Of a stretch of DNA of 64,000 nt, positions 1 to 16,361 are shown one piece after another (the stretch's first letter is position 1; every line of letters starts with the position of its first letter). Both the position numbers and the translations under genes were made by a program. Location: the NCBI GenBank assembly GCA_902826685.1, contig CADEFT010000002.1:186001-250000 (forward strand), in the 5' to 3' direction. This stretch comes from an uncultured Acidobacteriota bacterium. GTDB taxonomy: Bacteria > Acidobacteriota > Terriglobia > Bryobacterales > Bryobacteraceae. The notes beneath the pieces were generated by a model. That model made no database searches. It was not told the origin of the DNA and saw nothing but the letters and a program-made list of their open reading frames with translations.

Positions 1-645
1 CCAGTGCAGCGAACCCGGATAGTGAATCGTGAACCGGCCCTGGCGGGGCTTCCGCGCCGACAAAGGAAATAGCTCCGGGTCCGGGTAATACCAAATCGAC
101 GTGCACTTTGACCGGGCCGCTGAGCGCCCGGCCACCCGTTCGAGCCAGATCGGGTTGGCCACGATCACGTGATCGGCGAATCCGGCCGCCGCTTTCTCAA
201 ACTGAAGAAGCAGGCGGAAGAGAGCCGAGTTCGAACGCAATTGAAACTTGCTGGCGAACAATTCCGGCGAAAGATCGCGCAGGTCGAGCAGCACCGGAGT
301 GCGCAGTAATTTCGGCCCAATGGCCGCCAGCATCAGAACGTCGGGCACCGTTTGGACGTGAACCAGATCGTAGCCATGCCGCAGGCATCGCCATGCGGCG
401 AGCGCCGCCGCCTGTACGATAAACAGCGCCAGGCGGAACAGGTATCCGGCGAAACGGAACCGCTCCCTGGAGCGAGTGGCGATGCGGAACACGCGCACGC
501 CATCGACCGTTTCCACGCGCGCGCGCCCTTTGGCCCGCAGGCAGATGACGTCCACCTGGTCGCCCCGGCCCGCCAGCGCCCTGGCAAACTGCAGCATATG
601 CGAGTTGCCGTCGTAGAAGCGATAGGCGATGAGACAGACTCTCAT
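1..645 (-). CDS. GT4-like glycosyltransferase, N-terminal part (runs off the window)
   Basis: Only the first 215 residues are present; the 3' part lies beyond base 1. The protein starts MRVCLIAYRF and has the GT-B N-terminal (acceptor-side) pattern of GT4 enzymes: a Rossmann-like first strand, then an HVQTVPD segment and a DLRDLSPELF segment, which is typical of the N-terminal domain. The C-terminal donor-binding domain with its EX7E motif would lie outside the window. The ATG overlaps the stop of the upstream GT2-hydrolase gene (ATGA), so it is translated as part of the EPS operon. It probably adds a sugar to the lipid-linked repeat unit at the cytoplasmic face of the inner membrane. The family is clear; the sugar and linkage cannot be read from the sequence. 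Confidence 0.8.
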   Translation of the reverse strand, partial: MRVCLIAYRFYDGNSHMLQFARALAGRGDQVDVICLRAKGRARVETVDGVRVFRIATRSRERFRFAGYLFRLALFIVQAAALAAWRCLRHGYDLVHVQTVPDVLMLAAIGPKLLRTPVLLDLRDLSPELFASKFQLRSNSALFRLLLQFEKAAAGFADHVIVANPIWLERVAGRSAARSKCTSIWYYPDPELFPLSARKPRQGRFTIHYPGSLHW

Positions 646-3600
646 CCGTTCACCCGCACAGTCAGGTTGGAGGGTGGCGCGGGCGCCGCGCTCGACGGCC
701 GCGGGATGCGGTAGATGTGCACGCCGCAGGCGGCGAATTGATCGGCGATCAGGCCGTTGACCACCGGCACCGTGCGGTTTTCCCCGTACACCTCGGCCTG
801 CGTGGTACCGAGATCCGATACGGTAAGCAGAGCCGTCACCGGCGGGTCGAACTGCTCGCCGATATCGCTCAGGCGCGCGGCGAAGACATAGATGGAATGC
901 GCGTCTTCCTTCACCATCGCGTCGACGCGATTGCGGGCCGCGGTATTGGCGCTTGAGACCGTGCGCGCCGTCTCGCTCAGAATCACGTCCTTGAGCGCGG
1001 TGGCGGTGGCCGCAAATCGCGCCATCACCTCCCGGCGAGGCGTGTCGATGTAGGCCAGCGGCCCCCACCACGAGATCCCCTTCATGCCGTGAATCACCGC
1101 CAGCCAGGCTTCCATGTTCACCTGGGCGGGCGTGGGTCCATAGCCGCCCGTGCACACCGGCGGATTGGGGCAGGGTTGAATGCCGCCTTCGATGAACGTA
1201 TACCAGGGCACCAGATCGTAGGTGTAGCGGCGCAGCCTGCCGAGTTGCTCCACCCATTGGGTGACATTCCATAGCCCCCTCGCCTGGTAGATCAGCGGAT
1301 ACATGTCGAAGGCGAACACGTCGGCCACCAGCGGCCGGGAGTTGGGCACGATCGGGTAATGCCAGCCCGAGCGCCTGTTCCTGACGTTGCTGGCGGGGTA
1401 TCCGGCCAGGTTGAGCATCACCGGATGATGGGCGTCGTTTTGATGCGTGGCCTCCATCAGCTCGATCATCCGCTCGGGCGGAACGTGTCCAGGCACCGGG
1501 CCGAGGTCGGGCTCATCCTTCCAGGTCCACATGAATTTGCTGGGATGGGTGGCGAGCGCCTTCACGTAGTCGATGACGATGGCCACGGCGCTCGAGCCGT
1601 TGGCGGCATAAACGCCTTCCCCGCGCCCGGTGAAGTTGTCGTTCGGGCCGATGGCCGGCGCGCCGTTGAGCGAATCGAGAAACGAGCGGTAATTGTCCTT
1701 GTGATAGGCGTAGCCGTTGACATAACCCGCCACCCATCCGTAAGTGTTCACGGCGTTCGATTGCAGCCAGCTTTGCCACTTGGTGACGCCATCTTCAAAC
1801 GGCGAGAGGGAGAAGAACTTGCTTCCCCCGCGCCAGATGTTGTTGTGCTCATCGATTGAAACGGCGGGTATCCCGGCCATGTATTTGGTCACGCTGGTGG
1901 CGTAGGCCGCTTTCTCGGCGCCGGCGGCGGTGGAAAGGCTGACATACAGGGAATGATTGCCGCGCCCCAATTCGCCGATCCGTACCGCGAACCTCTCCCG
2001 GCCGCTCAACGGTCCCGCCTTTTCGTGGACCGTCACGCCGTTGAGCCGCGCCGACAGCTTATCGGTGGGACTGTGTCCGTAGATCACGGCATCCACTGGA
2101 ACCGCCGAGCGCGCGGCCGTGTTGGGCAGGCGGACGGTGAGGCCGGCCGCCGGCGCCCCGACCGGGGAAGCGCTCAGCACGACATCGTCGAAATAGAGAA
2201 GTCCGGTGGCCGTCGCGAAATTTTCCACGCTCAAATAAACGCGATCGGTCGAAGCGCCGGTCGTGAGGCCGGTGGCGGTCAGATAGTTCGCTCCATCCAC
2301 CCGCACCGTGGCGGACCCGGTTCCATCGGCCGCCAGTCTGGCGGTCGCTTCGAGCGAATGCCATTCCCCGCGGCTGATCCCGGTCTGGCCCACCACTCCC
2401 GAGCGCTCGCGCAGCACGAGAATCCCCTTGTCGTTCAGCAGGCGCAGTTGAGGGCCGTTTTCGACGGTGAGAATGGTGGCGCCGGTTCCCGCCGTGGCGA
2501 GGCTTCCCGGTTCCACAAAGAAAAAGAATCGGACGTTGACGTTGGCCGTGGCGGGGAAGGCGTGAAGGTTTTTGCAGTTCCCTCCCGCCCCGATTTCGGC
2601 GCGGAAGGAAAGGTGGCCCGAATGGGGCCGGTGCGCCGTCACCGCGCAGCCCGGCTTGCCGCCCGACGGGTTCGATTGGTCGGCTCCGGACCAGGCCGAG
2701 AAGTCGCCCACTTCGAAGTCGTCGGCGAAGAAGACACCTTGAGCCAGGCCGGAAGCGGCGAGCAGCAGCCACAGCGCCGCCAGACCTTTCAATCCCAGAC
2801 TCCATCGCAGAACGGTATTCCATTTGTCCCGGCTCCGGCCGCCGCGGCCGAGGATCGCCAGAACCGCCAGCCGGCCGAGCGCCGACAGGACCATGCCGCC
2901 GCGGAACAGCGCCGCCCATGTTGTTCCTCTGCGCCGCCGCATGAACTCGAGCAGCGAGCTCCAGCGGGTGATCACTTCAAACTGCGATTCGGGCCGGCTC
3001 TGCGCACTGGCGCCGCCGTAGTGGACAATCGACACCGCCGGCAGCACGTAGGTCCGCCAGCCCAGCCGATTCGCCTTCAGACAAAGATCGCGGTCTTCGA
3101 CGTACATGAAGTAGTCTTCGCTGAACCCGCCCGCCGCTTCAAAGACCGTCCGCCGCACCATCATGGCGGCTCCGGAAACGCAGTCGACCGCCGTGGCGCC
3201 TGTGCGCCGCCACAACGCCGCATGGCCGCGCGCGGCGAACTCCGCGCTATCGAACAGTTCGCCCGCCAGGCTCGGGAACCGCTGCACGCAGCTTTCCTGG
3301 ATGCTGCCGTCGGCGTTGAGCAGCTTGCAGCCGACGATGCCGGCATCGGGTTGGCTTTCAAGCGCCGCCAGCATGGCGGGGATCGCCGGCCCCAGCACCT
3401 GCGTGTCCGGATTCAGCAACAGCAGCGCGCGCCCGGACGATTCCCGGGCCAGGCGGTTGTTGGCCTTGGCGAAGCCGAGGTTCACCTCGCTCTGCACGAA
3501 CCGCACGCCGGGAAAGCGGGCCGCCAGCATCTCCCCGCAGCCATCCCGGGAGGCGTTGTCGAGCACCAGAATTTCCGCCGCGAGGCCGTGCAGGCCATTG

Positions 3601-3671
3601 GCGAGACTCTCGAGACAACCGCGCAGGTAGTCCGCCGAGTTCCAGTTCACGATGAGAATCGAAAGGTCCAT
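642..3671 (-). CDS. Fusion of GT2 glycosyltransferase with an exported glycoside-hydrolase-like region
   Basis: The 1009-residue frame starts at MDLSILIVNWNS, 2 bp after the upstream stop; a longer in-frame extension lacks similarity and was dropped. Residues 1-250 are a rhamnosyltransferase-type GT2 domain (VLDNAS, NPDTQ, EDRDLCLK), followed by a membrane segment near 255-280. Residues 294-311 look like a complete signal peptide (LKGLAALWLLLAASGLAQG). Residues about 313-503 resemble a concanavalin/LamG-like beta sandwich, 504-600 an Ig-like module, and 604-1000 a TIM-barrel hydrolase of the clan GH-A type, with possible catalytic Glu in WKDEPDL (about 720) and in TFIEGG (about 828). An in-frame TTG at 2792 with a GGAG 7 nt upstream could start the exported part separately (716 residues). 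Fusion, or two genes that lost a stop codon, are both possible. Confidence 0.75.
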   Translation of the reverse strand: MDLSILIVNWNSADYLRGCLESLANGLHGLAAEILVLDNASRDGCGEMLAARFPGVRFVQSEVNLGFAKANNRLARESSGRALLLLNPDTQVLGPAIPAMLAALESQPDAGIVGCKLLNADGSIQESCVQRFPSLAGELFDSAEFAARGHAALWRRTGATAVDCVSGAAMMVRRTVFEAAGGFSEDYFMYVEDRDLCLKANRLGWRTYVLPAVSIVHYGGASAQSRPESQFEVITRWSSLLEFMRRRRGTTWAALFRGGMVLSALGRLAVLAILGRGGRSRDKWNTVLRWSLGLKGLAALWLLLAASGLAQGVFFADDFEVGDFSAWSGADQSNPSGGKPGCAVTAHRPHSGHLSFRAEIGAGGNCKNLHAFPATANVNVRFFFFVEPGSLATAGTGATILTVENGPQLRLLNDKGILVLRERSGVVGQTGISRGEWHSLEATARLAADGTGSATVRVDGANYLTATGLTTGASTDRVYLSVENFATATGLLYFDDVVLSASPVGAPAAGLTVRLPNTAARSAVPVDAVIYGHSPTDKLSARLNGVTVHEKAGPLSGRERFAVRIGELGRGNHSLYVSLSTAAGAEKAAYATSVTKYMAGIPAVSIDEHNNIWRGGSKFFSLSPFEDGVTKWQSWLQSNAVNTYGWVAGYVNGYAYHKDNYRSFLDSLNGAPAIGPNDNFTGRGEGVYAANGSSAVAIVIDYVKALATHPSKFMWTWKDEPDLGPVPGHVPPERMIELMEATHQNDAHHPVMLNLAGYPASNVRNRRSGWHYPIVPNSRPLVADVFAFDMYPLIYQARGLWNVTQWVEQLGRLRRYTYDLVPWYTFIEGGIQPCPNPPVCTGGYGPTPAQVNMEAWLAVIHGMKGISWWGPLAYIDTPRREVMARFAATATALKDVILSETARTVSSANTAARNRVDAMVKEDAHSIYVFAARLSDIGEQFDPPVTALLTVSDLGTTQAEVYGENRTVPVVNGLIADQFAACGVHIYRIPRPSSAAPAPPSNLTVRVNG

Positions 3672-3673
3672 GG

Positions 3674-4549
3674 TCAGGTTCGCAGGCCAAGCGCCGCCCG
3701 CATCTTCAAACGCTGCTCGGTTCTGAGAAACGAAACGGCTTCGGAGGATAGAGAGACCGGCTCGCCGCGCCATCGGGCGAGAAAGAAGCCCGTCAGCGCC
3801 GCCAGGCTGCCCGCCGCCCACGGCCGCTCCAGGCATTTGTAGACCGCGCGCAGCGCGTAGAACAGCGGATCGTAGCCGAGCGAGTGGAAGCGCGCGCCTT
3901 CCCGAAACCGCGCCTGGAGGATGCCTCCAGTGGCGCAGCCCATCCGGCGGTTCTCAAACGCCGGGCTGTGTGGAAAGTGCTTGACCTTCCAGCCGCGCAT
4001 GCGCGCCGTAATTTCCGCCGCCGCGTCGATGCCCCCGCGGGCGAGGGGCTGGTAACGGTTTCCGATATCGAGGAAGCATTCGCGGCGGAAAAGCTGCACC
4101 GCGCCGGGTACGCTGTCGGGCGCCAGCCACTGGCGGAAATCGCCACGGGAACCGCGGGTCCATACCGGCCCGCCGGCGATGCCGAGCCGCGGGTCCCGCT
4201 CGAATTCGCCGAGAACGGTTTCGTAGTAGCGGCCGGACAGCTCGATGTCGGCATCGAGGTTGCCGATGTAGCGGTAGGGCAGGTCCTCGATCAATGGCAG
4301 CGCGGCGTTAAAGGCCGCGGCCTTGTTGGCGAAATGGCGGTTGGGCTCTCCCTCGCGCCTCAGCACGCGGATGAAATCGTGCCGCCGCGCCCAGGCCGAC
4401 GCGAGCGCGTCCGTGCCGTCGCTCGACCGGTCGTCCACCAGGACCCAGCGCATCGGCCGCGCCGTCTGCCGCAGCACGGATTCGACGACGCCTTCCAGGT
4501 GCGCTTGCTCATTGTGCGCCGGCGTGATCAGAACGTAGGGTTGAATCAA
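3674..4549 (-). CDS. GT2 family glycosyltransferase
   Basis: This 291-residue cytoplasmic glycosyltransferase has the GT-A fold signature: an N-terminal TPAHNEQAHL strand-loop, VDDRSSDGT at the nucleotide site and NLDADIE as the DXD metal site. No N-terminal membrane segment is visible; a hydrophobic stretch near the C-terminus (AAGSLAALTGFFLARW) may anchor it. It lies between a deacetylase (4-bp ATGA overlap at its start) and the GT2-hydrolase fusion (2 bp after its stop). It presumably extends the undecaprenyl-linked oligosaccharide from a nucleotide-sugar donor. Donor and linkage cannot be predicted. Confidence 0.85.
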   Translation of the reverse strand: MIQPYVLITPAHNEQAHLEGVVESVLRQTARPMRWVLVDDRSSDGTDALASAWARRHDFIRVLRREGEPNRHFANKAAAFNAALPLIEDLPYRYIGNLDADIELSGRYYETVLGEFERDPRLGIAGGPVWTRGSRGDFRQWLAPDSVPGAVQLFRRECFLDIGNRYQPLARGGIDAAAEITARMRGWKVKHFPHSPAFENRRMGCATGGILQARFREGARFHSLGYDPLFYALRAVYKCLERPWAAGSLAALTGFFLARWRGEPVSLSSEAVSFLRTEQRLKMRAALGLRT

Positions 4550-5373
4550 CTCACCGCCCTCAGACGTTTCGATAGCGACTGGAAGGCGTGGATCCAGTCG
4601 TATTCGCCCGCCAGCTTGGCGCCCAGCAGCGGCGGATCGTCGAGTGTGTTCACCGGCAGGCGCGGCAGGCCGTAGCGTTCACTGCGCGCCGAGACGCGCC
4701 CGATCATGGTGCTGACGCCGAGCGTGTAGCCCGCCCGCTCGAGCAAATCGTCCAGCCTCCGGCGAAAGGGCCGGTCCTGTTCGGGATAGGCATATGGGTA
4801 TGAGAACGCCGCGACCGTCTTCCCGGTGTGATGCTCGATCGACGCCTTGGAGTCTTCTACCTCCCGCCGCAGCCCTTCCGCCGGCAACTGTGTCAGCTTG
4901 GGATGGGTCACCGTGTGGGATCCAAACGAGATGCCCATGCCTTGCAACTGGCGCACCTGGGTCCAACTCAGGCAGCGGCGCCCGTCGAATTCGAGATTCG
5001 ATTCCCCGATATAGGCGGCCGGTAGAAACATGGTGGCGGTGTAGCCGAACGATTGCAGCACCGGGAAGGCGGAGTGGTAGAAATCCTCGTACCCGTCGTC
5101 GAAGGTGATGACGAACCGGCGTGCACCGGCCGCTGAGTCCACCGCGTCGAGATCGGCGGTTCGCCAGCCCGCGGCATGAAGCGCCTCCATCTGCGCCCGG
5201 AACATCGATGGATGGGTGTCGGTCCGGTAATAGGGATGGCAGGGAGGTCCCGTGTACTCCGACACGCTGTGGTACATGAGGATCGGAACGCTCGCTTCAG
5301 GCGTGTTTGACAGCAGCGCCGTCAGCGGACGGCCCACCGAAAGCGTGAGGATTCTATCGAGCCGCGGCAGCAT
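4546..5373 (-). CDS. Polysaccharide deacetylase (NodB homology domain)
   Basis: The 275-residue protein carries the CE4 motifs: ITFDDGYEDF (catalytic base and first metal ligand) and SHTVTHPKL (the HxxxH metal pair), with PILMYHSVS at the domain start. The start at MLPRLDR was chosen over a longer frame because GGGAGG lies 6 nt upstream and it reduces the overlap with the preceding gene to 20 bp. There is no signal peptide, so the protein may act in the cytoplasm on a lipid-linked intermediate, unlike exported CE4 enzymes that modify finished polymer. N-deacetylation of an acetamido sugar would fit the diacetamido-sugar genes in this cluster, but the substrate is inferred. Confidence 0.85.
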   Translation of the reverse strand: MLPRLDRILTLSVGRPLTALLSNTPEASVPILMYHSVSEYTGPPCHPYYRTDTHPSMFRAQMEALHAAGWRTADLDAVDSAAGARRFVITFDDGYEDFYHSAFPVLQSFGYTATMFLPAAYIGESNLEFDGRRCLSWTQVRQLQGMGISFGSHTVTHPKLTQLPAEGLRREVEDSKASIEHHTGKTVAAFSYPYAYPEQDRPFRRRLDDLLERAGYTLGVSTMIGRVSARSERYGLPRLPVNTLDDPPLLGAKLAGEYDWIHAFQSLSKRLRAVS

Positions 5374-6640
5374 GTTGTTCCTCCCGTTGGCCGGCCGCGA
5401 GGATCTCACTCATCGCGCGGCGTACCGAGGCGCGTGCCTCGGCGGCTTGCCGTGCCAGATCCGGCCTGATCCGGTCCCGCATGCGATAGAGCTCCACCGT
5501 TCGGGCGACCGCTTCCTCGGTCGAGCACTGCCGCCCGTCGATCACCCAGTCCGCCATGCCGGCGGTTTCGAAAACGCCGGCGAACTTGCGGCTATAGGCG
5601 ACGCCCACGGCCGGGATGCCTTGGGAAAGGGCGGCGATGCAGGCGTGCATGCGGGAGCCGATCAGAAAGTCGCACTCGCCGATGATCCCTTTCACCGACT
5701 GGGCGCTCCCGATCTCCCCGATCGGCCGCACACGGCCCTTCAACTCCGGCGGCAGCGCCCGATGCACCTTCTGCGACGCGGCGGCATCGTTCTCGACGCC
5801 GTCGCTGTTTCCGAGCACGTGGGGAATCAGCCAGATTTCAGCGGCGGGTTCTTCCCGCAACAGTTCCGTCAACACCCGGCGCAGATAGAGCGGATAGTCG
5901 ATCTTCAGACCGAACATGTTCCGGCGGGTGTAGCCGCCGTTGTACATCAGTCCGTTCACGTTCAGGCCGATGGCGGGCACCGGCCGGCGGACGTTTCGTT
6001 TGACCGCCGGCAGGCAGAAAGCCACATCCGGACACTGGCCTACGGGAACGGCCTCTCCCGCCAGCTCCCGCGCCACTTCCCGGCTCACCCGGTCCCGCGC
6101 CAGCACGGCCGCCGAGCGGCTCAGGATCGCCCGCGCGATGCGTCTGGCGAGGCGGTGCTCGAAAGGGCCAAAGGTCTGCGGAAACTGCACCAGCCGCCCG
6201 CCGAGCAGGATCACCGACAGCGCCGGCACCGAGCCAACCACGAAATTCCAAAGCCCATAGATGTCGCTGAAGCTGTCGCCGCCGCGGATGTCGCCCACCG
6301 TCCCGGCGTCGAGGACGGTGCGGATCCAAGGCGTCGATCGTGCCAGAGCCGGCCGCAGCCACCCCCACCGGCAGTAGCGGTAGATTACGGACGCCAGGAG
6401 AATCCAAGCCAGGTGGCGGCTCGGACGCGACCGCGGCGAGAGCCGGTAGTTGACGACCCGGATTGGGTTTCCGCGATCGTCTGAAACCGTTTCGCCGTCG
6501 CGCTTGGCGATGAGCAGCGCCAATTCCGCCCCGGGTGCGGCCTCGCGGCACAGCAGCAGCAGCGACTCCTTCAGAGCATGTACACCCCGGTTTTCGGACG
6601 TAACCGGAACGCCCATCACACACACCATGGTTTTCATCAT
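5354..6640 (-). CDS. Polysaccharide pyruvyl transferase family protein
   Basis: This 428-residue protein matches the PS_pyruv_trans family (CsaB/WcaK/AmsJ-like): an N-terminal Rossmann-like half beginning VCVMGVPVTSENRG, a central GGDSFSDIYG motif, QFPQTFGPF, and the family's C-terminal block GSRMHACIAALSQGIPAVG followed by YSRKF. Such enzymes transfer pyruvate from phosphoenolpyruvate to sugar hydroxyls as ketals, adding negative charge to EPS; other members act as glycosyltransferase-like enzymes. The start overlaps the stop of the Wzy candidate by 4 bp (ATGA). Family assignment is firm; the acceptor is unknown. Confidence 0.85.
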   Translation of the reverse strand: MMKTMVCVMGVPVTSENRGVHALKESLLLLCREAAPGAELALLIAKRDGETVSDDRGNPIRVVNYRLSPRSRPSRHLAWILLASVIYRYCRWGWLRPALARSTPWIRTVLDAGTVGDIRGGDSFSDIYGLWNFVVGSVPALSVILLGGRLVQFPQTFGPFEHRLARRIARAILSRSAAVLARDRVSREVARELAGEAVPVGQCPDVAFCLPAVKRNVRRPVPAIGLNVNGLMYNGGYTRRNMFGLKIDYPLYLRRVLTELLREEPAAEIWLIPHVLGNSDGVENDAAASQKVHRALPPELKGRVRPIGEIGSAQSVKGIIGECDFLIGSRMHACIAALSQGIPAVGVAYSRKFAGVFETAGMADWVIDGRQCSTEEAVARTVELYRMRDRIRPDLARQAAEARASVRRAMSEILAAGQREEQHAAAAR

Positions 6641-7893
6641 TCGACAGAAGACCTAGTCCGGCCCGCGGCCAGCCCGGAAACCGCGCCCGCCATCGTCAGG
6701 TGGAAGAACATGACCGACTGGTCGAAGTAGGACACCGATAGAAACGCCATGGCATGGGAGAATAGTGCCGATCCGAATGCCCAAAGAGCGAAACGGTTGG
6801 AGCGTTCCTTTACGTTCTCGAGCCCCCTGCCAACTGCCGCGAAACCCGCGCTGAGTATGCCCAGGAAGATCAGCACCGGCGCGAGGCCTCCGATCACTCC
6901 GAGGTGGACGTAGTAATTGGTGATGTCGGTATGGTTGGGGCTCCAGGTCACCCCCGTCGGCATCCAGTGCCGCGTGTAGTCGGTTCCGAAGGCCCACCAT
7001 TCCTTCAGATGGTCGAGGCTCGAATGGATCAGCTCTGCGCGATGCCAACCGGTGCTGCTGCCGGTCAGATCGAACCGGCCGATGATGTAGTAGGCGGGTA
7101 CCTTCATGACGGCTTCGAGAACCGCATAGAGGCCGATCGCCGTCCAGCGCATCGGGGCCATGTGATTCCGGAGCTTCCAGCAGGCCAATGCGGCCAGGCT
7201 GACCAGCGCGGCGAGGATCGGTCCGCTCGAACCGCTGGTCGCGATCATGGCCAGACAGGCCGCGGTTCCGGGAATCGCCAGCCGGTGCCCGGATCGCCAC
7301 AGCACGGCCATGACCGGCAGCATGGCCGCCCCCGCCGTTCCGGCGAGAATCGGATGGGCGAACGGGCCCGACGCCCGCACCCGGCCATCGCGGATGGCGG
7401 GCATCGCCGGTACGCCTCCTAGAGCGCTAAACACGTTGGAAAGCGCCACCCATTCATAGATCATGCAAAGCGACACGACCGATAGCGCCACCGCCACCAC
7501 GGCCGCCGCGCGGGGCAGTGCCGCCCGGTGAGGGAGGAAACAGCGGAACAGGAAATACAAGCCCAGCGCATCGTAGGCGAAGCCGAGATTGAAGATCAGA
7601 GTGCCGGCCGGATTCTTTCGAAACACAGCGGCCCCCGCCACGCTGAGGGCGAGCAGCATGTAGAGCCCGTCGGTGAGCAGGAACCGGTTGGGAAATTCCC
7701 GCCGCACGGCCACTCGAATCGCACCGCAGGCGATCACCGCGCGCGGACCGGTGATGGCGATCGATCCGATCTCAAACCCCGCCAGCGTCAGAAAGCAGGC
7801 CGCACCCACAAGGGGAGCCATCGCCCAGCGCCTTGGCGCGGCCAGCATCGCGATGCACAGCACACCCAGAATGACGATGCCGATTGCACTCAT
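6637..7893 (-). CDS. O-antigen polymerase/ligase-like membrane protein (Wzy candidate)
   Basis: This 418-residue polytopic protein has about 10-12 predicted membrane segments. The largest soluble loop lies in the second half, around SGPFAHPILAGTAGAAMLPV and the following SSTGWHRAELIHSSLDHL region, with conserved-looking HP and histidine positions typical of Wzy/WaaL-like proteins. In a Wzx/Wzy pathway such a protein polymerises undecaprenyl-linked repeats in the periplasm. It is the only polymerase candidate in the cluster, and a flippase, Wzz, BY-kinase and Wza are all present, which supports the call. Sequence conservation in this family is low, so polymerase versus ligase cannot be decided. 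Confidence 0.75.
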   Translation of the reverse strand: MSAIGIVILGVLCIAMLAAPRRWAMAPLVGAACFLTLAGFEIGSIAITGPRAVIACGAIRVAVRREFPNRFLLTDGLYMLLALSVAGAAVFRKNPAGTLIFNLGFAYDALGLYFLFRCFLPHRAALPRAAAVVAVALSVVSLCMIYEWVALSNVFSALGGVPAMPAIRDGRVRASGPFAHPILAGTAGAAMLPVMAVLWRSGHRLAIPGTAACLAMIATSGSSGPILAALVSLAALACWKLRNHMAPMRWTAIGLYAVLEAVMKVPAYYIIGRFDLTGSSTGWHRAELIHSSLDHLKEWWAFGTDYTRHWMPTGVTWSPNHTDITNYYVHLGVIGGLAPVLIFLGILSAGFAAVGRGLENVKERSNRFALWAFGSALFSHAMAFLSVSYFDQSVMFFHLTMAGAVSGLAAGRTRSSVE

Positions 7894-7899
7894 GAATCT

Positions 7900-9120
7900 C
7901 TACCCGGCGTTGGGTTCCAGCAGGCCGTTCTTCTTCCAGGCACGCCGTCTCACCAGGCGGCGCAGAGTGCCTACCACCGAACGGGCGCGCCTCGCGAGAC
8001 TTAGTTGTGCCCAGCAACGGAAGAGACCGAAGCCCGGGAAGCGGGGCGCCGGGATGGCCATCATCCTCATCGCCAGCAGGCGTCCGAATACGTTGCGTTT
8101 GCGATCCACCAGGCCGGCCTGTGCCCGCAGCACCGCGCCCTCACTCGAAGGGGCCAACGTTACATAGCCCGCCTCCATCGCCTTTCGAAGAACGACGCGT
8201 CCCAGTTCGGTTCGCACGAGCACGAGCGAAGTCCCCGCTTGCCCGCCTCCCTCGTAGGCATGCCAGGCGTCTCCACACGAAATGTCCGCCGTCGCGCCCA
8301 GGCCATCCGGACAGAGGTTGCAGCGAAACGGACGGTACTTGGTGAGCCTGCTCCAAGAGTCCATGTAGGAAAGGCTTGCCGAGCTTCCATCGCCGGCCAG
8401 AATCTTGAAATCGCCGGGCCACCCTTCCCCCCGGTAGCGCACTTCGCGGATCTTCTGCGTCTCGAAACCGAGCGCTCCGGCGAGCGTCAGCGTCCCATCG
8501 GTGCTCGGCGTGCCCGCGCAGAAAAAGGACAGCACCAGGCCAAGCTTGCGGTCGAGGTCGGGGTTGTCACGGCGCAGCATGGCCACCGCGGCCGTATCGC
8601 AGGGTTTCCCGATGAATACCGAAGGAGCCGCGCTCTCTTCCACCGTCCGCAATCCGTCGCAAGGAGACGACGGCGCATACCGCGACCCCGACCGCGCCAG
8701 AATCTCGGTACGCGAACGGCTGGCGACCGTGCGGTTCTTCCACGGCTCGGTTGGATCCATGGCCGAGTGCAGCACCTGTCCCATCCCACCCTGTTCGAGA
8801 CAGTAGAGGGAAAGTGCCGACAGCACGCCGCCCGACGAGCCTTTGTATCGAACCTCCGGGTCGCTCGCGTGACCCTGCCAGATTTCGAGCACAGGACCGG
8901 CCTCGCCGGTTGCACTCCCGTTGAGTTCAATGCGATGGCCGGGGCAGATGTCGAGACACCTGGTGCAGTTCTCGCAATCGCCTGTGAACCGCGGACGGAT
9001 GCCGGTCTGCGGGATGTGGACCAGTTCCACCGCCTGACGGTCGCAGGCATGGAAGCAGCCGCCACAGCCGACGCAGAGCCCCCAGTCCACTACATCGCCG
9101 ATTGTTTCAATTCGTGCCAT
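7900..9120 (-). CDS. FrhB/FdhB-type iron-sulfur protein with two [4Fe-4S] motifs, in an EPS cluster
   Basis: The start MARIETIGD was chosen; a longer frame adds only low-complexity residues over the neighbouring acyltransferase gene. The 406-residue protein opens with two ferredoxin motifs, CVGCGGCFHAC and CENCTRCLDIC, then a coenzyme F420 hydrogenase/dehydrogenase beta-subunit-like body (KGSSGGVLSALS, VFIGKPCDTAAV, RCNLCPDGLGATADISCGD). Known family members bind flavin and iron-sulfur clusters and move electrons between F420 or ferredoxin and a substrate. Homologues do occur beside pyruvyltransferases in bacterial polysaccharide loci. Reduction of a sugar or lipid intermediate is a guess. 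The downstream Wzy candidate starts 6 bp away. Confidence 0.8.
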   Translation of the reverse strand: MARIETIGDVVDWGLCVGCGGCFHACDRQAVELVHIPQTGIRPRFTGDCENCTRCLDICPGHRIELNGSATGEAGPVLEIWQGHASDPEVRYKGSSGGVLSALSLYCLEQGGMGQVLHSAMDPTEPWKNRTVASRSRTEILARSGSRYAPSSPCDGLRTVEESAAPSVFIGKPCDTAAVAMLRRDNPDLDRKLGLVLSFFCAGTPSTDGTLTLAGALGFETQKIREVRYRGEGWPGDFKILAGDGSSASLSYMDSWSRLTKYRPFRCNLCPDGLGATADISCGDAWHAYEGGGQAGTSLVLVRTELGRVVLRKAMEAGYVTLAPSSEGAVLRAQAGLVDRKRNVFGRLLAMRMMAIPAPRFPGFGLFRCWAQLSLARRARSVVGTLRRLVRRRAWKKNGLLEPNAG

Positions 9121-9794
9121 CGCTCCACTTTCGAACCGGCCAGGAGGGGATGGGATACGACTGCCGGCTCCACCATCGCCGCCAGATGCGCCGCACATTC
9201 CTCCACCGGCCGCAGCCACCATTCGCTCGCCAGCACCGCGGCCCGTGTGGCGCGGTCAAAGCGGTAACGCAGAATCCGCGCCGGCACTCCCGCCACGATG
9301 GCGAAATCCGGTACATCGGCCGTCACCACCGCGCCGGCGCCCACCACCGCGCCGATCCCGATCCGCCGGCAGCCCGCGGTAATAACGCTTCCCGCGCCAA
9401 TCCAACTGTCGTGGCCGATGTCGAGCCGCCCGAACGGTACCGTGTCTTCCGCCACCAACCCCAGGCTCGCGTTATAGAAAAACGGATGCGTCGACAGCCG
9501 GTCGAGCGGATGATCGCGCAGGAACACCTTCACGTCGCGCGCGATCGAAACGTAGCGTCCCACCGCCACCCCGCCCGGGAACAGGCCGGGCGTCGTGCAG
9601 GGGCCGTAGCTATAGGCGCCCACTTCCACGCCGTGATAGGCGGCGAGAATCTCGCGCAGGGTGCGCGAACGCATTTCGCCCCCTTCCAGGCGCCGGGCGA
9701 GCGACAGACACAGACGCCGCAGCGGGCGGAACCCGTAGAACCTCCGTAGCAGGCCCGAGAAGCGGCTGACGCGCAGGCCGTTCATCGAAGACAT
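9090..9794 (-). CDS. Left-handed beta-helix acyltransferase (XAT/CatB-like)
   Basis: This 234-residue protein has hexapeptide repeats (GRLDIGHDSWIGAGSVI, then IGIGAVVGAGAVVTADVPD) followed by the family's AIVAGVPARILRYRF ending, and a loop with FLRDHPLDRLSTHPFF that contains the catalytic-type His. This pattern fits the xenobiotic/O-acetyltransferase branch, which uses acetyl-CoA to acetylate sugar hydroxyls. AAGGAG 5 nt before the ATG supports the start. The gene overlaps the flippase stop by 13 bp and the iron-sulfur protein start by 31 bp. O-acetylation of the EPS repeat unit is the likely role; the acceptor is unknown. Confidence 0.85.
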   Translation of the reverse strand: MSSMNGLRVSRFSGLLRRFYGFRPLRRLCLSLARRLEGGEMRSRTLREILAAYHGVEVGAYSYGPCTTPGLFPGGVAVGRYVSIARDVKVFLRDHPLDRLSTHPFFYNASLGLVAEDTVPFGRLDIGHDSWIGAGSVITAGCRRIGIGAVVGAGAVVTADVPDFAIVAGVPARILRYRFDRATRAAVLASEWWLRPVEECAAHLAAMVEPAVVSHPLLAGSKVERWHELKQSAM

Positions 9795-11221
9795 GCTTCT
9801 CCTTCGACCGGCCGCGCCACGGCGTCGCGGAAACCGCGCTGGGCGAAGGCAAGCGATGCCGGATACAGGCGAGCGCCCAAAGACGACAGACCGGCCAGCA
9901 GTAGCGCGGCGAGGAGGTATCGCGCCGGTCCACTCGCCATCGAACAGGCCAGAAACGCCAGTCCGCCCGTGAGAACGAACAGGATCGTCTGGACCCCGCC
10001 CGCCCGCTGCCCCTTCTCAAAACACAGCAGCGTAGCCAGCACGGCGGCCAGTTCCCCCACGATCGCGCCGCCCGCCATCCACTCCAGGCCGCCCGAGAAG
10101 GCGCCCGCGGCGGCCGCCGCCGGAAGTCCCAACATCCGCGCCAGGTTGCCCCACAGCGTGCTGGATGTATCGGCCGCCGCCATCAGGGCGGTGGCCATCA
10201 CCTGCCTCAGGCAGCGCAGTGCGATCGCCACCGCCAGGATCGCCAGGATCCCCGCGGCGCCGGAATACCGCCCGCCATACAGCAGCGTCAACACCTCACC
10301 GCCCGCCGCCGCCGCGACCGCCAGAAACACGATCGATCCCATCGCCGTCAATTCGAGACAGGTCCGGTACTGGCGCAGGTAGCGCGGTGGGTCCTGCCGG
10401 GAGCGCGACAACACCGGCAGCAGGGTCCCCAGCGCGACGTGTCCGAACAGAAAGCTCGGAATCAGAACGAGGGAGCAAGCCAGGCTGTAATCGGCCACCG
10501 TTTCGAGCGAACCGTAGCGGCTGACCACCACGCGGTCGCCTTGCGTCGAGACCGCCATCAGCGCGCCGCCAATCACCAGCGGCCAGCCGAAGCGCAGCAT
10601 ACCCGCCAGATGGCGCCGGTCCCAGGCCCAGCGATAGGGCGTCCGCGCCAGAAGATGGCTCATCCCAACCGTCGATCCCACCCGGACCAGTTCGAGATAC
10701 AACATCAGACGGAAATCGGGCACCAGCGAGGCCAGCGGCCAGGCCGCGGCCGTGAGCGCCAACTGCGGTATCACTTCGCTCGCCACGGCCGGTTGAAACT
10801 CCAGATGGCGCTGGCGTATATAGAGATCGGCATGCGAGAAGGCGGTCAGCAAGGGCGCGAGCGCGAGCAGGCGGAAGGCCCAGGCCCCTTCCGGCACCTG
10901 GCTCCAGACGGCCAGCGGCCCGGCCAGCAGCGCGAGAACCGCCGCGCTCGCGACGCCGGTCAGACATTGCAGCGCGTGGCAGGTATCGCGAAACCGTGGC
11001 GACTCTCCTTCCCCCGACTGCACCACCTGCTGGTTGAGCGACAGCCGGTTGGCGAAATCGAGCACCGCCAGAAAGGCCAGGAACAGGGAGGCGAGCCCGA
11101 AGTCGGCTTTGGCCAGCGTCCGCGCCAGAATCACGCTGCGCAGGAACGCGAGCCCATGGCACAGGATTCGCGACGCCGTCAGCAGACCGGCGCCGCGCAG
11201 GACTTTCGCCGCGGTCAGCAC
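9782..11221 (-). CDS. wzx: Lipid-linked oligosaccharide flippase (Wzx, MOP superfamily)
   Basis: This 479-residue integral membrane protein has about 12-14 predicted helices and the polysaccharide-transporter pattern: an N-terminal ASRILCHGLAFLRSVILAR amphipathic helix, LSLNQQVVQSGEG, and a central GDRVVVSRYGSLETVADYSLA, where the charged residue inside a helix is typical. The start is a GTG at 11221, 7 bp inside the upstream gene; the longer frame adds 65 glycine- and arginine-rich residues antisense to nothing recognisable. Its ribosome site is weak (AAAGG), so translational coupling is likely. It should move the undecaprenyl-PP-linked repeat to the periplasm for the Wzy candidate. Confidence 0.85.
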   Translation of the reverse strand: MLTAAKVLRGAGLLTASRILCHGLAFLRSVILARTLAKADFGLASLFLAFLAVLDFANRLSLNQQVVQSGEGESPRFRDTCHALQCLTGVASAAVLALLAGPLAVWSQVPEGAWAFRLLALAPLLTAFSHADLYIRQRHLEFQPAVASEVIPQLALTAAAWPLASLVPDFRLMLYLELVRVGSTVGMSHLLARTPYRWAWDRRHLAGMLRFGWPLVIGGALMAVSTQGDRVVVSRYGSLETVADYSLACSLVLIPSFLFGHVALGTLLPVLSRSRQDPPRYLRQYRTCLELTAMGSIVFLAVAAAAGGEVLTLLYGGRYSGAAGILAILAVAIALRCLRQVMATALMAAADTSSTLWGNLARMLGLPAAAAAGAFSGGLEWMAGGAIVGELAAVLATLLCFEKGQRAGGVQTILFVLTGGLAFLACSMASGPARYLLAALLLAGLSSLGARLYPASLAFAQRGFRDAVARPVEGEACLR

Positions 11222-11709
11222 CCTTTGGCCGCCACCGCCGCCCGGCCCAGAGCCCTGGCCGGATTGCCCGCCACTACCGTGCCCGCCGGCACATCCCTGG
11301 TGACCATGCTGCCGGCGCCGATCATGGCGTTCTCGCCAACCGTAACGCCCGCCAGAATCGTTACGCCCGAGCCGAGCGAGGCGCCCTTGCGTACCAGCGT
11401 CGGAATCACCTTCCAATCGGCTTCGGTCTGCAGTTTGCCATCGGCCGCCGTCGCCCGCGGATGCATGTCGTTGATGAAGGTGACGCCGTGGCCGATGAAC
11501 ACCCCATCCTCGATCGTCACGCCCTCGCAGATGAAGCTATGGCTTGAGATCTTGCAATCGCGGCCGATGCGCGCCCCTTTCTGGATCTCGACGAAGGCAC
11601 CGATCTTGGTGTTGTCCCCGATGTCGCAGCCGTAAAGATTGAGGAACTTCGACAGTTTCACGTTCCGGCCGAGCTTCACGTCCGGCGCAATGCAGCAGAA
11701 TTCGCCCAT
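11215..11709 (-). CDS. Hexapeptide N-acetyltransferase, WbpD/WlbB-like
   Basis: The 164-residue protein is almost entirely hexapeptide repeats (VKLGRNVKLSKFLNLYG, IGDNTKIGAFVEIQKG and later GSGVTILAGVTVGENAMIGAG), with FINDMHPRA and the ending VVAGNPARAL. This matches UDP-2-acetamido-3-amino-2,3-dideoxy-glucuronate N-acetyltransferases. The start MGEFCCIAP was chosen; the longer frame has no family similarity upstream. A Gfo/Idh oxidoreductase and a DegT aminotransferase in the same operon provide the WbpB- and WbpE-like steps, so the three together could make UDP-2,3-diacetamido-2,3-dideoxy-glucuronate. The required UDP-GlcNAc 6-dehydrogenase (WbpA) is not in the window. Confidence 0.85.
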   Translation of the reverse strand: MGEFCCIAPDVKLGRNVKLSKFLNLYGCDIGDNTKIGAFVEIQKGARIGRDCKISSHSFICEGVTIEDGVFIGHGVTFINDMHPRATAADGKLQTEADWKVIPTLVRKGASLGSGVTILAGVTVGENAMIGAGSMVTRDVPAGTVVAGNPARALGRAAVAAKGC

Positions 11710-11716
11710 AAGTTCC

Positions 11717-12862
11717 CTAGTAGGCCCCCGAACCCATCCACACCGCCAGCGGCGTCCGCAATAGAATGCGCAGGTCGAGCCACAGGTTCCACGACTCCGC
11801 ATAGCGCATGTCCAGGCGCACCATGTCGTCGAACCGGACACGGCTGCGGCCGGAGACCTGCCACAATCCGGTGATGCCGGGCTTGACCGTCAGCACGCGG
11901 CGGCGATGCCACGGCGCGTAAGCTTCCACTTCGTAGGGAATCGCCGGGCGCGGACCCACCAGCGACATCTCGCCCCGCAGCACATTGATCAGTTGCGGCA
12001 GCTCATCGAGGGACGTCCGCCGCAGCCACCCACCCACCCGCGTCACCCTGGCGTCGTTGGTGATCTTGTAAACCGGCGCGCCCTCGAGCGCCGCCGCGCC
12101 TTCGCCGCCCGCGATGAAAGAACGCATGTACTCGCGGTGAACCGATTCGTCGTTTGACGCCCGCATCGAACGGAACTTCAGGAACGTGAACCGGCGTCCC
12201 CCCAGGCCGACCCGCTGCTGGCGGAACAGCACCGGTCCGCTCGAAGTCGACTGGATCGCCGCCGCGATCGCCAGCAGCAGGGGCAGCAGCAGGCACAGCC
12301 CGGCCAGGCTCAACCCGACGTCGAGGGAGCGTTTGAGAAGGCGCGAAGTCTGGCGCCGCTCCTCGCCCGCCGCCACATCGGGATAGAGCGCCGGGTTGGA
12401 GCTTCCATCGCCATCGCGGCCCGCCGGATCCTCGGGATAGAAGTGGAACGAGAGCCGCACCTGGCTTACCTCTTCCACCGGCAGCACCGCGCCAAGCGCG
12501 TCCGTCACCCGCGCCGCCAGCGCCCGGGTCACGGCCGCGCCGCGGGTGGCGTCGATCTCGGTGAAAATCACTCCGAACGTCGATCCGGCTTTGTACCAGC
12601 CCTTGAAATCGGTCTCGCGCGTCGTGCGCGCCAGGATGTTGGCGAACTTTTCAAAAGCACCGGCGCGGGCGCGGGAAAACAGCGTTTCCGTTTCGAGCAG
12701 CATCAGCACGAACGGCCGCCCGGAGCGTTCCGTTCTTTTCCTTTCGATCCGGAGCATGCGCAGAAACGGCGCTTGTTCGAGGACTAGCTCCTCCACCGGA
12801 ACGTCGGCGGGGGTCAGCGCGTCGTCGAAGACGGTTCGTAGAGCGGGTACGGAGGATGGCAT
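11717..12862 (-). CDS. Initiating sugar-1-phosphate transferase with degenerate GGDEF-like N-terminus
   Basis: Residues about 190-381 form a bacterial sugar transferase domain (PF02397 type): a membrane helix (RSLDVGLSLAGLCLLLPLLL), KFRSMR, a DELPQLINVLRGEMSLVGPRP block and KPGITGLWQVSGRS. It loads the first sugar phosphate onto undecaprenyl phosphate. The N-terminal 150 residues lack the usual four to five membrane helices. They instead resemble a degenerate GGDEF fold, with FVLMLLETE at the first strand, ETDFKGWYKAGSTFGVIF at the hairpin (AGSTF replacing GGDEF) and A/L-rich flanking helices. Cyclase activity is not expected; a regulatory or c-di-GMP-sensing role is speculative. Confidence 0.85.
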   Translation of the reverse strand: MPSSVPALRTVFDDALTPADVPVEELVLEQAPFLRMLRIERKRTERSGRPFVLMLLETETLFSRARAGAFEKFANILARTTRETDFKGWYKAGSTFGVIFTEIDATRGAAVTRALAARVTDALGAVLPVEEVSQVRLSFHFYPEDPAGRDGDGSSNPALYPDVAAGEERRQTSRLLKRSLDVGLSLAGLCLLLPLLLAIAAAIQSTSSGPVLFRQQRVGLGGRRFTFLKFRSMRASNDESVHREYMRSFIAGGEGAAALEGAPVYKITNDARVTRVGGWLRRTSLDELPQLINVLRGEMSLVGPRPAIPYEVEAYAPWHRRRVLTVKPGITGLWQVSGRSRVRFDDMVRLDMRYAESWNLWLDLRILLRTPLAVWMGSGAY

Positions 12863-12874
12863 GAAATCGGTTCT

Positions 12875-13351
12875 CTATGGCGGAATCGCGGCGGCGGCCT
12901 CGACCGAAAAAGCGCTCTCCAGACCGGAGGTGTTCACGCTCGTGGTCACGTAGTAATAGAGACGGCCGCTCTCCACCGCCGTGTCGGTAAAACTGGTGCC
13001 CGATACCGGCAGGGGCGTCAGCCGCGTGTAAGGGCCGCGCGACGCCAGGGCCCTGTAGACGTTGTACCCGGCGACGTTCGGCGAAGGGCTGGCCGTCCAC
13101 GTCAGGACCGCTGAGCGGTTCTGCCCGCAACGCCCGCTGAGCGAGGCGGCGCGCACGCGCTCGACCACCGTATCGTTACAAACGTTGAGGCCGGCGACAT
13201 TGGCGCGGCACGGACGCTGCCCGGCGCGCATGGCCACCGCCATCTGCACATCCACCACGTCCACGGCGTTATCGCCATTCAGGTCGCAGGGATTGGTCTG
13301 CGCGGCGGCAAGCCAGGCGGTGGCCGCCAGCAGCGGAAGCATACGTGGCAT
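12875..13351 (-). CDS. Exported protein with dockerin-like repeat and fibronectin type III domain
   Basis: The 158-residue protein starts MPRMLPLLAATAWLAAAQ, a signal peptide; an in-frame TTG 6 bp upstream is the alternative start. Residues about 20-55 hold a type I dockerin-like calcium loop (CDLNGDNAVDVVDVQMAV) followed by a degenerate second copy (CRANVAGLNVCNDTVVERV). The rest is one Fn3 domain (SPNVAGYNVYRALASRGPY to YYYVTTSVNTSGLESAFS). No cohesin partner is visible. It sits inside the EPS operon between the aminotransferase and the initiating transferase genes, so it may be a surface or matrix protein. Function is unknown. Confidence 0.75.
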   Translation of the reverse strand: MPRMLPLLAATAWLAAAQTNPCDLNGDNAVDVVDVQMAVAMRAGQRPCRANVAGLNVCNDTVVERVRAASLSGRCGQNRSAVLTWTASPSPNVAGYNVYRALASRGPYTRLTPLPVSGTSFTDTAVESGRLYYYVTTSVNTSGLESAFSVEAAAAIPP

Positions 13352-13360
13352 GGGCAAGAT

Positions 13361-14482
13361 TCAGGCGGTCGCCGCCATCGGACGGGCGCGGAAACTCCAT
13401 ACCGCCTCGGCCACGAAGTCGGTTTGTCCGGAGGTCATCTCCGGGAACATGGGCAGCGACAACTCCTCGGCCGCGATGCGCTCGGACACCGGAAACTCGC
13501 CCGCCCGATAGCCGAGATCGGCATAGGCGGGCAGCAGGTGCACCGGGTGCGGATAGTGGATCCCGGTCTGTACGCCTTGCGCGCTCAACCAGCGCGCCAA
13601 TTCCTCGCGATGCGGCGTGAGGACGGCGTAGACGTGATAGACGTGCCGGTTTTCCGGCGATTCCCAGGGCAGGTGCAGGCCGCTGCCCGTCAGCCCGCGG
13701 CGGTAGGCCGCGGCGTGCAGGCGGCGCGCTTCGGTCCACGCTTCCAGATGCCGCAGCTTGATGCGCAGCACAGCCCCCTGAACGCCTTCCATGCGGTAGT
13801 TGAAGCCCTTGAGCACGTGCTGATACTTGCGCTCGGCGCCCCAATCGCGCAGCATCCGCACCTTGCGCGCCCGTTCGGCCGAGCCGGTGGCCACGATGCC
13901 GCCTTCTCCATAGGCGCCCAGGTTCTTGCCCGGATAGAAACTGAAGCAGGCCAGATCGCCGATCGAGCCGCAGCGCATGCCCCGGTACTCGGCGCCATGG
14001 GCCTGGGCGGCGTCTTCGATCACCGTCAGGCCATACTGGCGGGCGATGGCGAGGATCGCATCCATATCGGCCGGGTTGCCGTATAGATGGACCGGCAGAA
14101 TCGCCTTGGTGCGCCTGGTGATGGCGGCTTCCAGTTGGGACGGGTCCATCGTGTAGCTGACCGGATCGACATCCACCAGCACCGGCCGCGCGCCCGTGTA
14201 TTCGACCGCGGCCACGGTGGCGACGAAGGTGCACGGAACGGTGATCACTTCATCGCCCGGGCCTACGCCCGCCGCCAGCAGCGCCAGATGCAGGGCGCTG
14301 GTGCCGCTGTTGACCGCCACGCAGTGTTCCACGCCGCAGTAGGCGGCGAACTCCTGCTCGAAGGCGGCCACTTCCTGGCCCAGCACAAACTGGGCCGAAT
14401 CGAAGACGCGCGCGACCGCGCCGAGGATTTCCTCCTTCAACGGGAGGTATTGCTGTTTCAGATCGAGGAAAGGAACTTGCAT
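13361..14482 (-). CDS. DegT/DnrJ/EryC1/StrS sugar aminotransferase (WbpE-like)
   Basis: This 373-residue PLP enzyme starts MQVPFLDLKQQY, the family's conserved opening; a longer frame only adds a proline-rich stretch. It shows NSGTSALHLALLAAGV (phosphate binding), IEDAAQAHGA (the Asp that pairs with the pyridine nitrogen) and SFYPGKNLGAYGEGG, where Lys forms the internal aldimine. These enzymes transaminate UDP-3-keto sugars, usually with glutamate. It lies 19 bp after a Gfo/Idh oxidoreductase, the arrangement of WbpB/WbpE, which supports a UDP-3-keto-GlcNAcA substrate. The family is certain; the substrate is inferred. Confidence 0.9.
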   Translation of the reverse strand: MQVPFLDLKQQYLPLKEEILGAVARVFDSAQFVLGQEVAAFEQEFAAYCGVEHCVAVNSGTSALHLALLAAGVGPGDEVITVPCTFVATVAAVEYTGARPVLVDVDPVSYTMDPSQLEAAITRRTKAILPVHLYGNPADMDAILAIARQYGLTVIEDAAQAHGAEYRGMRCGSIGDLACFSFYPGKNLGAYGEGGIVATGSAERARKVRMLRDWGAERKYQHVLKGFNYRMEGVQGAVLRIKLRHLEAWTEARRLHAAAYRRGLTGSGLHLPWESPENRHVYHVYAVLTPHREELARWLSAQGVQTGIHYPHPVHLLPAYADLGYRAGEFPVSERIAAEELSLPMFPEMTSGQTDFVAEAVWSFRARPMAATA

Positions 14483-14501
14483 GCGAATCCAAGGGGGAAG
14501 A

Positions 14502-15581
14502 TCAGGCGGTGGCGGCGAGACAGGCCGGACGGACACCCGGCGGCGGCGGGGGCGGCGCCTCCATGCCCCACGTCTCCACCTTTTCCACCCTGCCTTGCCC
14601 CTTCATCGAACGTGTGGCGGCCTCGAGCACGCTCACCACCCGCAACCCGCACAGGCCGTCGGTCACCGGTGCCGTGCCGCCGCGGATGCAATCGCCAAAG
14701 TGCTGCGCCACCGCCCGCAGGGCCTCGGTGCCGTCGATCCGCGGCGCGTACATATCGCCCGAACGGTAGCTCACCAGCAGGTTGCGCCGCGATTCATCGC
14801 CATTCTTCACGTCCACGCCCTTGTCGTAGACCTTCACCTTCTCGCTGGTCTCGATGTCGTCGTAGACGATCATCTGCCTGCTGCCGCCGATCAGCGTGCG
14901 CCGGACCTTCACCGGCGAGAGCCAGTTGACGTTCAGGTGCGCGATCAGCGAGCTGCCGTAGAAGGCCGTGACGTAGGCCAGGTTCTCCGAGGCGCCCGAA
15001 ACGTGCCCAATCCCGGTGGCCGACACTTCCGCCGGACACTCGGGCAGTATGTAGTCCATGATGGCCACATCGTGCACGGCCAGATCCCAGATGACGTCCA
15101 CGTCGTGCTGGAACAGGCCGAGATTAACGCGGGTCGAATCGTAGTAGTAAACGTCGCCCACCGACCCGCCGTGAATCAGATCGCGGATCTTGCGCACCGC
15201 GCCCGTATAGACGAACGTGTGGTCCACCATCAGCACCCGCCGGCGGCGGGCCGCTTCCTCGATCAGCCGCAGGCTCTCGGCGGTGCTGGTGGTCATCGGC
15301 TTTTCGACCAGCACATGCTTGCCGGCCGCCAACGCCTCCATCGCCAGCGGATAGTGCGTCGAGACGGGCGTGGCGATCGCAACGGCGTCGATCGTGGAAT
15401 CCCGCAGCACCGAGCGAACGTCGGTGGTCAGTCTGACGCCTGGGTAGCGGCGGTGGATGAGCGAGAGACGCTCGTCTCTGAGATCGGCCACCACGGCCAG
15501 CTCGATGCCGGGCACGTCGGCGAAGTTGCGGACCAGGTTCGGGCCCCAATACCCATAGCCTAGGATGCCAATACGGATCAT
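14502..15581 (-). CDS. Gfo/Idh/MocA family oxidoreductase (WbpB/WlbA-like)
   Basis: The 359-residue protein begins with an NAD(P)-binding Rossmann fold (IGILGYGYWGPNLVRNF) and carries the family's AGKHVLVEKPM motif with catalytic-type Lys, then a VDHTFVYTGAV strand and a C-terminal alpha/beta dimerisation domain. WbpB-like members oxidise the 3-hydroxyl of UDP-GlcNAcA, often recycling NADH with 2-oxoglutarate. The neighbouring aminotransferase and the WbpD-like acetyltransferase 3 kb downstream support this assignment. The last residues (PPPPPPGVRPACLAATA) are a short unusual proline-rich tail. Confidence 0.85.
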   Translation of the reverse strand: MIRIGILGYGYWGPNLVRNFADVPGIELAVVADLRDERLSLIHRRYPGVRLTTDVRSVLRDSTIDAVAIATPVSTHYPLAMEALAAGKHVLVEKPMTTSTAESLRLIEEAARRRRVLMVDHTFVYTGAVRKIRDLIHGGSVGDVYYYDSTRVNLGLFQHDVDVIWDLAVHDVAIMDYILPECPAEVSATGIGHVSGASENLAYVTAFYGSSLIAHLNVNWLSPVKVRRTLIGGSRQMIVYDDIETSEKVKVYDKGVDVKNGDESRRNLLVSYRSGDMYAPRIDGTEALRAVAQHFGDCIRGGTAPVTDGLCGLRVVSVLEAATRSMKGQGRVEKVETWGMEAPPPPPPGVRPACLAATA

Positions 15582-15599
15582 GATGATGCCTCGTTGTGT

Positions 15600-16361
15600 T
15601 CAGCGCCCGGAAGCGCCCCTGGCCAGCGCGCGCCTGGGTGTCCGGTTCTGCTTGTAGTAGGTGTAGTAATCGTCGTGATGCGGCTCGTCGAAGGCGTTCA
15701 GAACCAGGCCGGTGAGCGGCAGCCCGGCCAGCGCCTCGATCGAGCGGTCGAGCTCTCCGGTGGGCGTGAAGCCCCAGCGCACCACCAGCACGATGCCATC
15801 GGCCCGCGCCGCCAGCGAGTGGGCGTCGGCAAAGGGAGCGAGCGGCGGCGAATCGACGATAATCCAATCGAAGTGCCGCCGCGCCGCCTCGAGCGTGCGG
15901 TCGAATGCCGCGCTCTCAAGCAGCGTCACCGGCTCCGACGCCAGGCTGCCGGCGCTCAACAGGTAAAGACCCAGGGGATTGACCCGCCGCACCGCTTCGC
16001 TCAAGGATAATTCCCCCACCAGCACGTCGCTCAGCCCCGGCAGGTTGCCCTCGAGGCCCAGCGCTTTTGGAAGATCGGCGGCCCGCAGATCGGCGTCCAC
16101 CAGCAGCACGCCCGGGCTGGTTTGAGCCAGCACCGTGGCCAGGTTCGCCGCCACCGACGTCTTGCCTTCGGCCGGAATCGAGCTGGTCACCAGAACGGTC
16201 TGAAGCGTCTTTTCCCGCCGCCCGGAATGCAGCTTGTGCGCCATCAGCCGGTACTTTTCGGCGGCCGGCCCGTAATTTCCGGCGGCCAGCAGCTTGCTGT
16301 GCGGCCGTAGTTCCGCCGTGATTTCGGGCAGCTCCAACCCGTCGAAGGTGGAATAGCTCAT
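15600..16361 (-). CDS. Bacterial tyrosine kinase of the CpsD/CapB type (BY-kinase)
   Basis: This 253-residue cytoplasmic ATPase has a deviant Walker A (SSIPAEGKTSVAANLA), Walker A' (VLLVDADLR) and Walker B (WIIVDSPPL), the BY-kinase set. The C-terminal tail carries a tyrosine cluster (DDYYTYYKQ), the usual autophosphorylation site. It starts 6 bp after the Wzz stop, so this is the split arrangement in which a separate membrane modulator activates the kinase. Together they should control EPS chain length and export. Whether a cognate phosphatase exists is not visible in this window. Confidence 0.9.
   Translation of the reverse strand: MSYSTFDGLELPEITAELRPHSKLLAAGNYGPAAEKYRLMAHKLHSGRREKTLQTVLVTSSIPAEGKTSVAANLATVLAQTSPGVLLVDADLRAADLPKALGLEGNLPGLSDVLVGELSLSEAVRRVNPLGLYLLSAGSLASEPVTLLESAAFDRTLEAARRHFDWIIVDSPPLAPFADAHSLAARADGIVLVVRWGFTPTGELDRSIEALAGLPLTGLVLNAFDEPHHDDYYTYYKQNRTPRRALARGASGR

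Follow-up and report, generated by a model that had tools for sequence, protein, structure and literature searches.

Gene organization of the locus

The window analyzed in this work is a 64-kb stretch of DNA that is 100% identical to the host genome at the same place (contig C2, positions 186001-250000), so the open frame described below is present in the assembly. On the minus strand of the window, a single ORF extends from an ATG at position 3671 to a TGA ending at position 642 and comprises 1009 codons, with no internal stops in the translation. The frame appears coding throughout, as judged from the high GC3 in frame 0, and hydropathy analysis revealed two hydrophobic segments in the 1009-aa product, at residues 258-275 and about 294-316. 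The initial annotation, which gave no strand, had described this ORF as a GT2 glycosyltransferase followed by a membrane segment, a signal-peptide-like stretch and an exported hydrolase, an anatomy with which our analysis agrees. Antisense to the fused ORF there is a 629-codon open frame (window 1953-3842, plus strand), which is probably a by-product of the high GC3.

The fused ORF sits in a long co-directional exopolysaccharide operon. In the order of transcription, the operon encodes an AAA/ParA-type ATPase, an oxidoreductase, an aminotransferase, an initiating sugar transferase (PF02397), a Wzx-type flippase (PF13440), an FrhB-like protein, a protein without a Pfam match, a pyruvyl transferase, a polysaccharide deacetylase, a GT2 enzyme, the fused ORF, a GT4-type enzyme and a FemAB/GNAT-like protein. 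The part from the deacetylase back to the BY-kinase-like AAA/ParA-type ATPase occupies positions 4546..16361 (minus strand; assignments from Pfam), and two genes, 6637-7893 and 16368-17954 (both on the minus strand), were left without any Pfam match (threshold E 1e-5). Further upstream are genes for an export protein (PF02563) and for sigma-54 regulators. The polysaccharide cluster also includes a gene for a 908-aa protein with ASPM/HYDIN-type Ig-like repeats (window 18983-21709, minus strand), which lies next to that of a sigma-54 regulator.

The stops and starts of adjoining genes in this part of the operon share 4 nt. The GT2 gene immediately upstream of the fused ORF (3674..4549, minus strand; PF00535, E-value 4e-17; stop at 3674-3676) begins with a TTG that overlaps the previous stop as TTGA (4546-4549), the stop of the fused ORF overlaps the start of the GT4-type glycosyltransferase gene as ATGA (642..645, minus strand), and another ATGA is found at 6637-6640. 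Among co-directional overlaps in prokaryotes, those of 4 nt are the most frequent, and strict translational coupling was observed in 13 of 14 tested overlapping pairs (PMC6728339). The operon studied here resembles such coupled pairs in being rich in 4-nt overlaps, with a Shine-Dalgarno (SD) sequence inside the upstream gene (PMC6728339), but differs from them in that the stop between the two parts of the fused ORF is out of register and the frames are merged.

The glycosyltransferase part

Residues 1-293 (2793..3671, minus strand, with the ATG at 3671) correspond to a GT2 glycosyltransferase, as delineated by Pfam, by relatives that align in frame and by GC3. PF00535 matches residues 4-173 with an E-value of 2.2e-18 and a score of 67.2 bits, well above the gathering cut-off of 23.3, which confirms the domain proposed from the sequence at the outset. 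The membrane segment proposed along with it was recovered by hydropathy analysis as a C-terminal hydrophobic stretch at residues 258-275 (2847..2900, minus strand); it has basic residues on either side and is present also in stand-alone relatives. As this is the only hydrophobic segment within the GT2 part, and direct reading of the translation of the fused ORF found no QxxRW motif, the enzyme does not look like a channel-forming, processive polymer synthase. It resembles instead the single-sugar transferases of polysaccharide clusters; given the Wzx-type flippase and the initiating sugar transferase in the same cluster, its most likely role is to transfer a single sugar onto a lipid-linked repeat unit. 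The stand-alone, rhamnosyltransferase-like GT2 enzymes of polysaccharide clusters have the same GT2 domain, the same C-terminal hydrophobic segment and the same KWxxVLRWSLG end, but they stop there, whereas the frame studied here runs on into the next gene.

The hydrolase part

Residues 294-1009 begin with a signal-peptide-like stretch, MKGLAALWLLLAASGLAQ (residues 294-311; 2739..2792, minus strand). The initial annotation had noted this stretch, and both hydropathy analysis and an alignment (A2), in which it matches the signal peptide end of the stand-alone relative L046, corroborate it. For this stretch, a plausible A|Q cleavage site can be discerned by eye. The following region (approximately 2172..2738, minus strand), proposed to be a LamG-like module, aligns lengthwise with L046 and may indeed form a jelly roll of the ConA/LamG type, with weak profile evidence (PF14099, E-value 0.018 in the query; L-type lectin model, E-value 9e-5 in L046). 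The next region (approximately 1893..2171, minus strand) also aligns with L046 and can be described as a linker or an Ig-like beta region; the latter designation comes from the initial reading and no profile match to it was found.

The remainder (702..1874, minus strand) is predicted to comprise a clan GH-A-type catalytic barrel followed by a C-terminal beta domain. Residues 294-1009 yielded nothing above the Pfam cut-off, no curated GH family model reached its cut-off for the barrel (the best in relatives were PF02836, E-value 8e-5, and PF02449, E-value 1e-3), and a PDB search with the single hydrolase sequence gave no match. The relationship was detected only via the family profile: an hmmsearch of solved enzymes with a profile of 20 relatives (A4) reported GH158 (E-value 1.9e-9), GH2 beta-glucuronidase (9e-6) and beta-galactosidases (2e-4). 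The TIM barrel of the first reading thus gains support as a prediction from the profile similarity to GH158, GH2 and GH5 enzymes of solved structure, albeit a remote one; the match to these clan GH-A hydrolases covers the first half of the barrel and includes the acid/base site. The two glutamates singled out earlier could be placed as E720 (in the DEP motif, D719-E720-P721) and E828 (in TFIEGG). Neither D719 nor E720 varies among the 20 relatives, and the WxxxDE of the query family is aligned with the WxxxNE acid/base site of GH158, as expected of a clan GH-A acid/base. The GH158 alignment ends short of E828, the putative nucleophile, which is retained in 10 of the 15 sequences of A2 and replaced by Gln in the other five. 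The latter (L035, L036, L038, L041 and L042) are exported GH-A-like relatives that keep the DE pair and carry Gln in a VLQAF, VLQGF or VLQFF context, and a shifted or altered mechanism is possible in these proteins. An AlphaFold2 model of the hydrolase built from a two-row alignment had a pLDDT of 33.6 and was not used. Altogether, the sequence comparisons support the prediction that residues 294-1009 constitute an exported hydrolase of the clan GH-A type, without assignment to a particular GH family.

The junction and the internal start

The bases at the junction read AGT CTG GGA TTG AAA GGT. A TTG (2792-2790, residue 294) overlaps a TGA (2791-2789) as TTGA (2789..2792, minus strand), and the TGA is one register off the GT2 frame, hence the two frames merge. 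The TTG is preceded by an SD-like GGAG (2800..2803, minus strand) with a 7-nt spacer, exactly as had been pointed out in the initial annotation, together with the suggestion that it could yield the exported part alone. To assess whether such a site could be a chance occurrence, stop-to-stop frames of 250 codons or more from the query region and related loci (164 frames, 39,678 codons) were examined for in-frame ATG, GTG or TTG codons that have an SD-like 4-mer and lead into a signal-peptide-like stretch. Start and SD-like sequence coincided at 117 sites, of which only two had the signal-peptide-like stretch as well: one is the TTG of residue 294 and the other resembles a normal gene start within a longer stop-to-stop frame. 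Owing to the rarity of this combination, the internal TTG appears to be where a separate exported protein originally began, and the suggestion that it gives rise to the exported part alone is most likely right.

A frameshift well upstream of the junction was considered and ruled out, as the GT2 relatives align in frame up to KWxxVLRWSLG, immediately before the junction, and the GC3 stays high in frame 0 with no change of frame. The loss of the stop is therefore confined to a few bases at the junction itself. A one-base change among these bases, either natural or due to an error of assembly, would suffice to part or to merge the two frames.

Fused or separate in relatives

Homologs with the same order of domains, which would have been expected of an established fusion, were not found. 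Each of the 28 GT2 relatives inspected terminates 0-47 residues beyond the junction position (one of them, L006, stops exactly at the junction with LLWALGR*), none continues into a hydrolase in one frame, and among 150 genomes of the family only the query genome gave a match that spans both parts. The hydrolase alone, sought in overlapping sets of 237 family, 257 order, 399 class and 396 phylum genomes, is rare in the genomes searched. None of 11 genomes of the same genus has a hydrolase match, indicating that the locus is not a conserved feature of this genus. A full-length hydrolase relative was found only once: L046 (genome G494) is a free-standing protein of 770 aa with its own signal peptide. 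Its gene begins 3 nt downstream of the preceding stop codon and belongs to a cluster that also encodes a flippase, two GT2 enzymes and a GT4-type enzyme. The closest hydrolase relative (L003/L045 in genome G096) is 47% identical and is encoded in a polysaccharide cluster, along with a pyruvyl transferase and a GT4-type enzyme; as the hydrolase gene is truncated by the end of the contig, this relative was dropped as a witness to the junction. A GT2-hydrolase pair with an intact stop was not found in the relatives searched.

A comparable arrangement is present in the locus L008 (G107:C446), in which a GT2 gene whose product is 41% identical to the query is followed, via an ATGA overlap, by a separate exported protein (MRTLGAGALFLLSLPLLAATTYYVSPSGSDG...; reverse strand, from about 1317 to the end of the locus). 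From its sequence, the latter protein appears to be beta-helix-like, i.e. a different protein in the same slot. A GT2 gene followed by a separate exported protein, with a 4-nt overlap that retains the stop, thus exists in a relative. The fusion was to be doubted if relatives had a stop between the two parts, and the stops in all 28 GT2 enzymes, the separate L046 and the overlapping gene of L008 weigh largely against it. The counts among the GT2 relatives and the family genomes, together with the separate hydrolase relative, rule out a conserved GT2-hydrolase fusion.

Interpretation

Since the relatives keep both parts as separate genes, the fused ORF most likely represents two ordinary enzymes with a lost or misread stop. 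We consider it very probable that these are two neighboring genes of the operon rather than a new two-sided enzyme. A GT2 enzyme and a separately exported clan GH-A-type hydrolase would be ordinary neighbors in an exopolysaccharide operon, between which the stop is missing, probably as a result of a one-base change at the 4-nt stop/start overlap, be it natural or an assembly error. The hydrolase still has a ribosome site, a TTG start and a signal peptide of its own and would most likely be made from the TTG. If the long chain were translated, the stretch 294-311 should still act as a signal peptide, and signal peptidase would free the hydrolase. The GT2 enzyme would be membrane-associated but cytoplasmic, extending the lipid-linked repeat unit; this arrangement needs the segment 258-275 not to cross the membrane, with which the basic residues on both of its sides are consistent. 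The hydrolase would most likely trim or clear the polymer outside the inner membrane, in the manner of PslG-, PelA- or AlgL-type enzymes. Exopolysaccharide clusters often contain hydrolase genes, and PslG, PelA and AlgL of Pseudomonas are likewise polymer-cutting enzymes encoded in exopolysaccharide operons (PMC9075953), although they belong to enzyme families other than that of the query hydrolase and are encoded by separate genes. Fixation of the long frame in the species would be compatible with all these observations.

Within the preferred interpretation of two neighboring genes, we tentatively entertain an assembly or sequencing error as the specific cause: a one-base miscount in a short run of G or T at GGGATTGA may have joined two overlapping genes. 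The ATGA or TTGA overlaps of the operon pairs on either side, the separate state of the parts in relatives and the TGA placed one register off at the exact junction all argue for such an error, but the runs comprise only 3 G and 2 T, in which short-read assemblies seldom err, and no broken genes were noticed in the remaining operon.

It is unlikely that the locus is a dual-product gene, in which both the long chain and the hydrolase alone (from the TTG of residue 294) are made and the balance between them is functional. In favor of this reading is the in-frame GGAG-N7-TTG with a signal peptide behind it; however, the same start signals are expected anyway because this TTG would be the old gene start, and the merged state is not conserved.

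Least probable, and in our opinion very unlikely, is the view implied by the initial annotation that one chain, possibly of recent origin, builds the polymer inside and trims it outside, with a cytoplasmic repeat-unit GT2 and a hydrolase tethered outside by an uncleaved signal anchor so that synthesis and trimming are coupled: the frame is open and coding-like throughout and a similar GT2 and GH17 division of labor has been proposed for the pseudomonad NdvB/Orphan proteins (PMC10237404), but the order of domains is absent from all relatives examined, in which the parts are separate, the joint coincides with a signal peptide that looks cleavable and has an SD sequence and a start of its own, and the GT2 part is unlike a processive synthase with a channel.

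As regards the closest precedent, GH17 belongs to clan GH-A. In the NdvB/Orphan cyclic beta-glucan synthases of pseudomonads, a periplasmic GH17 domain is proposed to be joined to a cytoplasmic GT2 domain, which likewise places the hydrolase outside and the GT2 inside in one chain (PMC10237404). These proteins have several TM helices and a BcsA-like processive GT2 with QxxRW, and are conserved in many strains, none of which holds for the query; in the latter the domain order is reversed, there is no GH17 match and the GT2 part has one hydrophobic segment, which argues against membership in this group. With NdvB as a precedent for a membrane-spanning chain of GT2 and GH-A domains, the query fusion would not be of a new kind even if it were real. 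Were it both real and uncleaved, Wzx/Wzy-type polymer synthesis and trimming would be tied together in one chain.

Caution is advised in the annotation of such loci, as automated gene calling would yield a 1009-aa GT2-hydrolase "fusion" here, while the evidence favors two adjoining genes. The hydrolase group itself, for which no curated model reaches its cut-off, appears to comprise clan GH-A-like exported proteins of Acidobacteriota, some of them encoded in polysaccharide clusters, and merits characterization.
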